64,000 bases of DNA, from NCBI RefSeq assembly GCF_022370835.2, contig NZ_CP092365.1, positions 1,426,001-1,490,000 on the forward strand, read 5' to 3'. Numbering within the stretch: the first letter of the stretch is position 1; each line of letters begins with the position of its first letter. Source of the stretch: Mycolicibacillus parakoreensis. Lineage in GTDB: Bacteria; Actinomycetota; Actinomycetes; Mycobacteriales; Mycobacteriaceae. Shown here piece after piece: positions 22,661 to 26,204 of the stretch. Below the pieces are notes generated by a model. The model was not told the DNA's origin and ran no database searches. It was given only the letters and a program-made list of their open reading frames with translations. A program made the position numbers and the translations under genes.

Positions 22661-24430
22661 CTACAGCCCCAGATCGGCCTCGAACGCGCCCTCTTCGAGC
22701 CGATGCTTGACGGTGGTCAGGAAACGTCCGGCGTCGGCGCCGTCGATCAGCCGGTGGTCGTAGGTCAGCGGCAGATAACAGACCGAGCGCACCCCGATCG
22801 ATTCGTTACCGGAGTCGTCGACGATCACCCGGGGGCGTTTGACGATGGCCCCGGTGCCGAGCATGGCGGCCTGCGGCGGCACCAGGATCGGGGTGTCCAT
22901 CAGCGCACCCTGACTGCCGATGTTGGTGATCGTGAACGTGCCGCCGGACAGCTCGTCGGGGCGCAGATCGCTGGAGCGGGCCCGCGCCGCGATATCGGCG
23001 ATCGCCCGGGCCAACCCGGCCAGCGACAGATCGCCGGCGTTGTGGATCACCGGGGAGAGCAAGCCCTGCTCGGTGTCGACGGCGATTCCCAGGTGCTCGG
23101 CGTCGTAGTAGGTGATCTCGCCGGCATCCTCGTTGTAGCTGGCATTGATGTTGGGGTGGGCTTTGAGGCCGTCGATCACCGCCCGGGCGATGAACGGCAG
23201 GAACGTCAGGTTCACGCCCTCGCGTTCGGCGAACTCCGCCTTGGCCCGGGCCCGCAGCGCCACCACCCGGGTCATGTCGACCTCATGGGTCTGGGTGAGC
23301 TGCGCGGTGGCCTGCAGCGATTCCCGGGTCTTCTTGGCGGTGATCTGCCGAATCCGATTGGCCTTCTTGGTGGTGCCGCGCAGGTGGGCCAGTGCCGGCG
23401 CCGGTGCCGACGCCGCCGGGGCGGGCCGCGACGACGGCGCACTGGCCGGTGCCGACGGCTGCTCGGCCGCCGCCGTACGCTTCTGTGCAGCGTCGAGGAC
23501 GTCCTGTTTGCGGATACGACCGCCCACGCCGGTTCCGGTGACCTGGGACAGATCCACGTCGTGCTCGTTGGCCAGCTTGCGCACCAGTGGCGTGACGTAG
23601 GGCACCGCGCCGGACTCGCGGCCGCTCGGCTCGGCCGGGGCCTTCGGCTCGGGTTTCGGTTCGGCTGGTTCGGCCTTGGGCTCCGCCGGCGCCTCCGGTG
23701 CGGGCTCCGGTCGGGATTGGGCCTTCGGTTCCGGTTCGGGCTGCGGTTCGGGTTTCGGTTCGGGCTGGGGTTCGGCCGGGGCGGAGGAGGCGCTGTCGGC
23801 CGAGCCGATCCGGGCCAGCTCGCCGCCGACCTCGACGGTGTCGTCCTCCTCCGCGGTGATCGAGACCAACACCCCGGCGATCGGGGAGGGGATCTCGGTG
23901 TCGACCTTGTCGGTGGAGACCTCCACCAGTGCCTCATCGACCTGCACCGAGTCGCCGACCTTCTTGAGCCACCGGGTCACGGTGCCCTCGGTCACCGACT
24001 CACCCAACTCCGGCATCCGCACCGGTTGACTGTCACCGCCGCCGGCCGGCGGCGGTGACTGCTGCGCGGAGGCATCCGGTTGGGTGTCGGCGGCCGCCGG
24101 GGCCTCAGGCTCCTCGGCTGCCGGCGCCGCGGGCTGTTCGGCCGCGGACTCGGAGCGGTCGGCGGTCTCGCCGGTGCCGCCGGAATCCTCGGCGGAGTCG
24201 CTGATCTCGGCCAACGTCCCGCCGACCTCGACGGTGTCGTCCTCTTGGGCGATGATGCGGCTGAGCACCCCCGCGGCCGGGGAGGGGATCTCGGTGTCGA
24301 CCTTGTCGGTGGAGACCTCAAGCAGTGGCTCGTCGACGTCGACCGTGTCGCCCTCCTGCTTGAGCCAGCGGGTGACGGTCCCCTCGGTAACGCTCTCGCC
24401 GAGTGCCGGCATCTGGACGGAGAAGGGCAT
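22661..24430 (-). CDS. dlaT: Dihydrolipoamide acyltransferase (E2) with two lipoyl domains
   Basis: A 589-aa E2 component (called SucB/DlaT in mycobacteria; core of pyruvate dehydrogenase and the peroxynitrite reductase system). Order: lipoyl domain 1 (about residues 2-77), Ala/Pro/Glu linker, lipoyl domain 2 (about 120-196), each with the lipoylated Lys in [11 protein letters not shown] charged Pro-Glu-Lys repeat linker ([14 protein letters not shown]) follows, then the peripheral-subunit-binding domain ([19 protein letters not shown]) and the catalytic domain ending in the active-site motif [16 protein letters not shown] 24430 ([17 protein letters not shown]) is the family start, with GAGGAG upstream. 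lipB and lipA lie downstream on the same strand. Confidence 0.96.
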
Positions 24431-24606
24431 CGGTGTCGACTCCTCGATCGGTCGCGGAACACGGGTCGATCTCTGGCTTACCACAGCGCCCTGGAGGCGA
24501 GGCGGCATCTGAGGTCGATTGTGCTGACCATCCTGTCACTGTGGCCGAGTCGCCGCTCAACGGGGGACGGCCGATCGGCCGCCGGGGCCACCCCGCGAAC
24601 CATTGT

Positions 24607-24621
24607 TGAAAACGGTTTTCA
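24607..24621. promoter_or_regulatory. Zur/FurB-box-like palindrome 1
   Basis: TGAAAA-CGG-TTTTCA is a perfect 6+6 inverted repeat, 81 nt upstream of the PPE start codon. It closely resembles the mycobacterial zinc-uptake-regulator box, whose core is TGAAAATCATTTTCA. In a genome this GC-rich the A/T-rich palindrome stands out. It is 42 bp centre-to-centre from a second copy. Confidence 0.65.
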
Positions 24622-24648
24622 TCGGGGTTATCGCCTACCTGACGTTGT

Positions 24649-24663
24649 TGACAATGGTTGTCA
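24649..24663. promoter_or_regulatory. Zur/FurB-box-like palindrome 2
   Basis: TGACAA-TGG-TTGTCA is a perfect 6+6 inverted repeat of the same 15-nt geometry as the first. It overlaps a TTGACA -35-like hexamer at 24648-24653, an arrangement suited to repression of the downstream PPE gene. A clear -10 was not found. Confidence 0.6.
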
Positions 24664-24701
24664 TTCGCAGGTGGGTAGCTGGGGCGCAGGGGGTGCGCGC
24701 G

Positions 24702-26204
24702 ATGACCGCACCGGTCTGGATGGCGTTGCCGCCGGAAGCCCATTCCAGCGCGCTGAGCGCCGGGCCCGGGCCGGGGCCGCTGCTGGCCGCCGCCGGAGCC
24801 TGGTCGTCGTTGAGCGCCGAATACGCCGCGGTCGCCGCCGAACTCACCGCCACCCTGGGGGCTGTGCAGTCCGGGGCCTGGCAGGGGCCCACCGCGACCG
24901 TCTACCAGGCCGCGCATCTGCCCTACCTGACGTGGCTGGGTCGGGTCAGCGCCGACAGTGCGGTGACCGCCACCCAGTTGGAGACCGCCGCCGGGGCCTA
25001 CACCGGCGCCGTGGCCGCGATGCCGACCCTGCCGGAGTTGGCCGCCAATCACACCGTGCACGGTGTGCTGGTCGCCACCAACTTCTTCGGCATCAATACG
25101 ATCCCGATCGCGCTCAATGAAGCCGACTACGTGCGGATGTGGATCCAGGCCGCCACCACGATGGCGACCTACTCCGGGGTGGCCGGCGGTGCGCTGGCGG
25201 CCACCCCGACCAGCACGACCGCACCACCCATCGTCACCCATGAGCACGACGGCGCCGACCACGACGACGGCCACGGCCACGACGATCCCGCCGACAACCT
25301 CAGTCCGCTCGACCCCCGCTGGTGGCTCGACGTCGGCGGCGAACAGGTCGACAACGTTCAGCTGCTGGTCACCGACCTGTTCACCAACCCGTCGGCGCTG
25401 CTGACCGACCTGCCGATGGTGCTGGCCGACGTGACCTTCCACGCCAGCCAGCTGCTCTCCACCGCCCTGCAGTTCGCCCCGGCGCTGATCCAGCCGGCGT
25501 TGACCCTGGCGATCGCCGGTCTCGGTGGACTGGTGGGGCTCACCGGGATGGCCGGAAGCACCGCGGCCACGCCGGTGGCCCCCGCGCCGGCCCCGGCGCC
25601 GGCCGGTGGGCAGACCCAGCTGGTGCCGCCGGCGGCGGCACCGGCGGCACCCGGGGCGCCTGCGGCCCCGGCCGCCCCGGCGGCCCCCGGCGCCCCGGCG
25701 ACTCCGGCCCCGACCGCACCCGCCGCACCGACACCGCCGCCGCTCAGCGGCGCCGAGACCGTGGGCCTGGCGGTCGGCGGTGGCGACGGCGGGCCCACCC
25801 TGGGTCCGGCCGCGCGCGTGGCGGCCGCCGCCCGCGCACCCGCCTCCAGCAGCTACGCATCACCGGCCGCGGCGGCGGCCGCCTCCGCGGCGCGTCGACG
25901 CGCCCGCGGTCACCGGCGCACCGCCGGGCGCGCACCCGGGCGCGGGCGTGAGTACCTGACCGTCTCGGCGCCGGCCGACGCCGAGACGTCCGAGTCGGCG
26001 GAAACGAGCGCCGTGTCGGGCTCCGGGCGGGGCGCCGGCGGGGTCGGATTCGCCGGGGTCACCGAGAAACCCGCCGTCGCGTCCGCCGCGGGGCTGGCCA
26101 CCTTGTCCCAGTCCGACCCGGGCGTTGAGGGGGTGCGGTTGCCGCTGCTGCCGGGCAGCTGGGAACCCGATGACGCGCAGCGGCCCCCCGACGACCACGG
26201 GTGA
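24702..26204 (+). CDS. PPE family protein, PPE-PPW subfamily, with His/Asp-rich segment
   Basis: A 500-aa PPE protein. The N-terminal ~170 residues are the PPE domain: [14 protein letters not shown], the WxG-type motif AWQGPTA, and [22 protein letters not shown] 16-residue segment [16 protein letters not shown] (about 180-195) with five His and six Asp follows and could bind divalent metal. Then come hydrophobic stretches, a long Ala/Pro-rich region and the subfamily C-terminus GFAGV...LPLLPGSW (PxxPxxW). ATG 24702 has an AGGGGGT ribosome-binding site. PPE proteins usually leave the cell by type VII secretion with PE partners; none is adjacent. Zinc control is suggested by the upstream palindromes. 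Confidence 0.92.

Follow-up and report, generated by a model that had tools for sequence, protein, structure and literature searches.

Analysis of the window, the 64,000-nucleotide stretch of the Mycolicibacillus parakoreensis genome that was analysed, revealed a gene encoding a PPE-PPW protein next to dlaT (Table 1). The PPE gene is positioned 271 bp away from dlaT in the opposite orientation and 48 bp away from a pepB-like gene. The encoded protein scored 201.2 bits for PF00823 (cut-off 26) and 33.3 bits for PF18878 (cut-off 27) and belongs to the PPE-PPW proteins. The intergenic region contains two perfect 6-3-6 palindromes, which the first-pass annotation had described as resembling boxes of the zinc uptake regulator and which were found again at the positions it gave. 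No PE gene lies beside the PPE gene, and in the window there is no room for one on either side.

Table 1. Features of the dlaT-PPE locus (positions in the window)
Feature	Coordinates	Strand	Evidence
dlaT, divergent flank (named in the first-pass annotation and by eye), not thought to be a Zur target	22661..24430	-	common neighbour in G215, G362 and G072
Zur box 1, predicted (TGAAAACGGTTTTCA)	24607..24621	.	PWM 26.5; 14/15 columns invariant in 4 genomes
GGTTA and next bases, candidate -10 region between the boxes	24626..24634	+	5/5 GGTTA columns invariant
Zur box 2, predicted (TGACAATGGTTGTCA)	24649..24663	.	PWM 20.3; 10/15 columns invariant in 4 genomes
PPE-PPW gene, 500 aa, ATG start	24702..26204	+	Pfam PPE 1.4e-59, PPE-PPW 5e-8
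PPE domain, residues 6-167, ESX-3 type tip	24717..25202	+	closest solved chain 6uuj_B (PPE4), 1.7e-64
His/Asp-rich tract, residues 180-195 (16 residues)	25239..25286	+	sequence
PPE-PPW C-terminal region, residues 441-487	26022..26162	+	Pfam

Palindromic boxes in the dlaT-PPE intergenic region

When up to one mismatch was allowed, two matches to TGANAANNNTTNTCA were present in the window, compared to 0.08 expected, and none of 100 shuffles reached two. Without mismatch, this pattern is present at three places in the 3.94-Mb genome, compared to none for a reversed-pattern control. Two of these places are the window boxes, and the third is located about 180 bp upstream of the gene for the closest full-length paralogue of the PPE protein (L002). 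A position weight matrix (PWM) was generated from the M. avium paratuberculosis Zur sites in Table 2 of PMC4298942 (n=19). Both boxes scored well beyond background (26.5 and 20.3 bits; 1.5 Mb of Markov sequence gave at most 11.8 bits). In-sample scores of the training sites ranged from 26.6 to 44.9 bits. Box 1 falls marginally short of the lowest of these and box 2 by a clear margin; that both boxes score under all 19 counts against the zinc-scavenging reading presented below. Each box has one mismatch to the Mycobacteriaceae Zur consensus quoted in the available text of PMC8951752. The rarity of TGANAANNNTTNTCA in shuffles and in the genome and the PWM scores relative to the Markov maximum indicate that the palindromes are not chance occurrences.

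To determine conservation, a DNA query reaching from the dlaT start into the PPE gene was searched in 396 genomes of the genus. Among the matches listed, near-full-length matches were present in three other genomes (G215, G362, and G072). In all three, dlaT adjoins the PPE gene, and in G072, the contig of which reaches further, the pepB-like gene then follows. Both boxes are retained in all three relatives. In the alignment of these with the window, 24 of 30 box columns were invariant compared to 43 of 132 other nearby columns (p 2.7e-6). The dlaT-proximal columns were also well kept (84 of 109 invariant), as expected of dlaT's own leader. The dlaT/pepB neighbourhood was found in none of 40 named related loci with flanks of up to 6 kb, some of which were truncated at the end of a contig.

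The first-pass annotation had placed the boxes exactly four helical turns apart. The start-to-start distance is 42 bp in the window but 53, 48, and 48 bp in the three relatives, which shows that exact four-turn spacing is not a conserved property; fixed helical phasing was dropped. It had further let box 2 overlap a TTGACA -35 element. The hexamer is literally there (positions 24648-24653), but its role in a promoter did not hold, because it is lost in the relatives and no sigma-70-like pair emerged from a consensus scan of the whole of 24430-24720 for promoters. The GGTTA between the boxes is invariant in the window and the three relatives. It is followed by TATCGC in the window, which misses the last T of TANNNT, and by TACTGT or TACCGT in the relatives; the sequence between the boxes at two other promoters of the genome, described below, is TATCGT (ESX-3) and TAATGT (L002). 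These sequences suggest a -10 element between the boxes, with Zur on both sides. The promoter scan backs neither this element nor TTGACA, and together with the imperfect TATCGC of the window, it points against the proposed layout.

A strict box-pair search in 297 genomes of the genus yielded pairs in only three of them. The pairs in the two genomes other than that of the window are not located at a PPE gene: tight Zur box pairs were observed in G229 (L128:5102-5157) and G218 (L129:5221-5276) between a type-B L31-like gene (identified by eye) and a gene that diverges from it and encodes 304 aa.

Zur-type sites and the predicted Zur regulon

One Fur-family protein was found in the genome, with FurB/Zur of M. 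tuberculosis as the best solved match (2o03, 5.7e-66). Its gene sits with an ArsR (SmtB-like) gene beside a glycyl-tRNA synthetase-like gene (both by eye). For a broad genome scan, TGANAATNATTNTCA was used with up to two mismatches, which recovers 19 of the 19 published M. avium paratuberculosis sites. The scan gave 12 places compared to 5 for the reversed-pattern control, and five of the 12 fall in three promoters, those of the window PPE, of the L002 PPE, and of eccA3 in a complete-looking ESX-3 locus (genes by eye). The box pairs at these promoters are 42, 53, and 48 bp apart, respectively. L002 encodes a second PPE protein with 56% identity to the window PPE over residues 2-491. The seven other places were rejected, with PWM scores of at most 17.3 bits (six of them at most 8.0); the 17.3-bit place lies inside a permease-like gene (by eye), and no score above it was found outside the three promoters in the loci scanned. 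A scan with GANAANNNTTNTC was also set aside (ten places compared to 4 for the control, six of them without any PWM score of at least 6).

The consensus-like boxes thus lie near the presumed promoter, are conserved at orthologous loci, and occur in a genome with a single Zur-like protein. The motif scores, the rarity of the pattern, and the like box pairs at the ESX-3 promoter and at the second PPE gene add to this, and the Zur control of the PPE gene proposed in the first-pass annotation is very likely.

Stand-alone PPE genes with Zur boxes outside the ESX-3 operon, like the window gene, have been described at loci other than dlaT-PPE. MAP3737 and MAP3765 of M. avium paratuberculosis were induced about 76- and 24-fold by TPEN, and MAP3737 also has a box pair, 51 bp apart (PMC4298942, available text). 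MAB_0809c of M. abscessus has a zur box and follows zinc, with its function given as "Unknown"; a zinc-bringing compound lowered its expression (log2 -5.77 at 3 h and -4.66 at 24 h) (PMC8951752, available text). It has also been predicted as a Zur target (PMC6734328, available text). Zur-controlled stand-alone PPE genes are already known, and dlaT-PPE is a new locus of a known regulation.

The ESX-3 operon is Zur controlled in M. tuberculosis (PMC3796483, available text). In M. smegmatis, ESX-3 is under the control of IdeR and not of Zur, according to the same text, which counts against the zinc-scavenging reading.

Two further sites were observed in the genome. An IdeR-like stretch, TTAGGTTAGGTAAAGCTA (L045:3974-3991, minus strand), lies downstream of the Zur box pair of eccA3 and close to where that gene starts; it suggests dual iron and zinc control of ESX-3 here, as in M. 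tuberculosis. A weak Zur-like site (15.2 bits, L092:4209-4229) is located near the probable start of smtB-zur, and autoregulation, as described for M. smegmatis, is possible.

The His/Asp-rich tract of the PPE protein

Searching for solved structures revealed PPE4 of ESX-3 (6uuj) as nearest to the first 177 residues of the protein. The EspG-binding tip, which fixes the export route of PPE proteins, contains the same 10 residues in the window PPE and in PPE4 of M. tuberculosis. A PE partner must lie elsewhere because there is none alongside, and routing through ESX-3 is for this reason only inferred; a stand-alone PPE would still be compatible with the ESX-3 substrate class, the claim being weaker without an adjacent PE. 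PPE4 (Rv0286) belongs to the Zur-controlled ESX-3 operon of M. tuberculosis (PMC3796483, available text), whereas the window gene lies separately at dlaT, without an adjacent PE or EspG3 gene and with a His tract. From residue 180 onwards, no 20-residue segment of L004, the PPE4-like protein encoded in the ESX-3 locus of this genome, contains His or Cys.

The PPE domain is immediately followed by a dense stretch of His and Asp. Binding of zinc or a similar metal by this tract is likely; such tracts also bind Ni, Co, and Cu, which counts against the zinc-scavenging reading. Of the best 120 homologues listed in a protein search, 7 without the tip pattern were left out, and 84 of the 113 scorable ones have the tract. 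Tract-bearing homologues occur in entries of Mycobacterium, Mycolicibacterium, Mycolicibacter, and Mycobacteroides, and the closest named homologue among the matches listed is from Mycolicibacillus koreensis (81%). The tract is short here, with 5 His in 20 residues compared to at least 8 in 52 of the 113, which counts against the zinc-scavenging reading. M. abscessus has a tract-bearing PPE (P0123), which may be MAB_0809c. No report of a His-rich PPE was found in the open-licence literature searched, and the word "histidine" is absent from PMC4298942. The window PPE is assigned here to an ESX-3-type PPE group that carries such a tract after the PPE domain. The tract points to a functional variant among PPE proteins, which seems to be unnamed.

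In the genome of the window, 11 ESX-3-type PPEs were parsed; a further match (L005) was left unparsed and is outside this number. Exactly two of the 11, the window PPE and L002, have the tract (5 and 6 His/Cys per 20 residues, compared to at most 2 in the others), and Zur boxes in the 450 bp upstream were likewise confined to these two. Against the zinc-scavenging reading counts L015, a PPE of another type in the same genome, which lacks a box although 20 of its residues include 4 His/Cys (HLHAEHHE...).

The comparison was extended across genomes with ESX-3-type PPEs selected by the tip pattern from fetched loci and deduplicated. A Zur site of at least 14 bits within 450 bp upstream was scored as a box; a tract required a minimum of 4 His per 20 residues in the part following the tip. 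The tallies left out proteins without the tip pattern, and the second tally also those with fewer than 60 residues behind the tip. The first set (n=73) contained 10 PPEs with box and tract, 7 with box only, none with tract only, and 56 with neither, but is partly biased, since the search behind 40 of its loci had the tract peptide among six patterns. For the second set, 60 loci were picked regardless of the tract, the criterion being DNA similarity to the region that precedes it; here (n=56), the numbers were 5, 4, 0, and 47, respectively, and for three plasmid PPEs, they were 0, 2, 0, and 1. The total of 132 comprises 15 PPEs with box and tract, 13 with box only, none with tract only, and 104 with neither (Fisher p 1.7e-12, which is only indicative and overstates independence because the PPEs are related). 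The tract-bearing PPEs fall in seven groups of a weakly supported N-terminal tree. The 13 Zur-boxed PPEs without a tract show that Zur control does not require the tract.

Zinc importer genes and the predicted role of the PPE protein

ZnuA, CobW_C, and the ABC-3 permease were not found in the genome of the window, and ZnuA and the ABC-3 permease were not found in G215, G362, and G072. ZnuA is missing from 20 of 40 genomes, the four dlaT-PPE genomes among them; with a loss this common in the genus, its absence proves little and is circumstantial. The ABC-3 permease is missing from 7 of 10 genomes, including the same four. A CobW-domain match above the Pfam cut-off was present in 40 of 40 genomes, and the best match was weakest in the four dlaT-PPE genomes (1.2e-6 to 1.6e-5, compared to 6.4e-10 or better in all other 36). 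The seven of the 40 genomes in which a tract-PPE was seen in the loci examined (G000, G215, G362, G072, G073, G309, and G351) are all without ZnuA, compared to 13 of the 33 others; four of the seven share the dlaT-PPE locus, and the 33 may include further genomes with a tract-PPE. M. abscessus has both ZnuABC and a Zur-boxed PPE (PMC8951752, available text), and the PPE is therefore not simply a ZnuABC substitute. The candidate zinc-acquisition module of the first-pass annotation is backed by the tract and by the importer families not found, and it is not unique to the dlaT-PPE locus, as a family of such PPEs exists.

We consider it probable that the gene encodes a Zur-repressed, ESX-3-exported, zinc-binding PPE that serves zinc scavenging; for the role in zinc uptake itself, the balance inclines a little less firmly in favour. 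When zinc is sufficient, Zur-Zn dimers would occupy both boxes, probably flanking the -10 element, and keep the PPE gene from being transcribed. Under zinc scarcity, Zur would dissociate, and the PPE would be made alongside the Zur-controlled ESX-3 machine and the second PPE of the same kind (L002). It would probably be chaperoned by EspG3, be paired with a PE encoded elsewhere, most obviously PE5 from the ESX-3 operon, and be exported via ESX-3. Either on the cell surface or within the mycomembrane, the tract would probably bind zinc and feed its uptake. No importer of the ZnuA/ZnuB type was found in this lineage. Against this model counts that it gives no inner-membrane route for zinc without ZnuABC.

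The model has parallels in other systems. ZnuA, a Zur-controlled zinc-capture protein, contains a flexible His/Asp-rich stretch, as the window PPE does under predicted Zur control; ZnuA has a different fold and was not found in this genome. ExsI of Corynebacterium glutamicum is likewise a type VII-exported metal-binding protein serving metal uptake; it differs in acting on iron with Fur and the ExiR receptor, and the likeness is one of function (PMC12607788, available text).

Other explanations concern the purpose of the protein or the identity of the regulator. A Zur-controlled PPE might act as a surface zinc store or sponge, or as a partner of ESX-3 itself, and not in zinc uptake. His/Asp tracts do buffer zinc in other proteins, and the length of the tract varies from 14 to 55 residues among aligned tract-bearing homologues, like that of a flexible stretch; however, the low-zinc expression expected from Zur suits scavenging better than storage, and we regard this explanation as unlikely. 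Slightly less likely still is a PPE that is regulated by zinc and acts on the host or the envelope, the tract being meant for another metal or incidental. The 13 Zur-boxed PPEs without a tract agree with such a role, as do the many roles of PPEs in general, but the tract is found in none of the 104 unboxed ESX-3-type PPEs and, among the 11 parsed in this genome, only in the two with boxes.

Fur-family boxes resemble each other, and the low score of box 2 could point to another regulator (FurA/Fur, MntR, or SmtB). This is very improbable, given that the sole Fur-family protein found is Zur-like, that ESX-3, which Zur controls in M. tuberculosis (PMC3796483, available text), has a like doublet in front, and that similar pairs lie beside the type-B L31-like gene in G229 and G218. 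Hardly any weight falls on chance palindromes or on operators of dlaT. The intergenic region is common to dlaT, the start codon of which lies 177 nt from where box 1 begins, but the shuffles, the conservation of the boxes, and their PPE-proximal position speak against both, and dlaT is missing from the zinc-response table of M. avium paratuberculosis in the available text of PMC4298942. Position and conservation pattern, in genomes that all carry the PPE, make dlaT an unlikely target of Zur, in line with the first-pass annotation, which called it the less likely one.

Zinc scavenging by the exported PPE can be extended to the whole group. The tract-bearing, ESX-3-exported PPEs, a widespread group, may be Zur-switched envelope proteins that capture zinc with the tract and, with ESX-3, form the main zinc acquisition system of the Mycolicibacillus-like lineage, a type VII replacement of ZnuABC. 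This extension, suggested by the lack of a ZnuA or ABC-3 permease match and by the weak CobW-domain matches, is tentative and rather doubtful. The tract with its Zur boxes offers a testable link between ESX-3, zinc, and the function of PPEs, in the form of an ESX-3 substrate that would bind zinc. In this lineage, the Zur regulon is predicted to be bare, with ESX-3 and two tract-PPEs among the sites found, which would permit a test without the usual ZnuABC background. The findings suggest that some mycobacteria gather scarce zinc with exported PPE-family proteins.

Further arrangements of ESX-3-type PPE genes were observed in other loci. In G251 (L127:5755-9383), two such genes with closely similar starts stand in tandem, followed downstream by an eccA3-like gene (by eye); the second of the two is preceded by a weak Zur-like site (17.7). 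On plasmids of M. avium (pHP17a, L212) and M. paragordonae (L213), ESX-3-type PPE genes with Zur-like boxes are divergent from a PLP-dependent cysteine synthase-like gene. A non-ribosomal peptide synthetase is encoded beside the PPE in L212 and an MFS transporter in L213, and these loci could be a mobile metallophore cluster.
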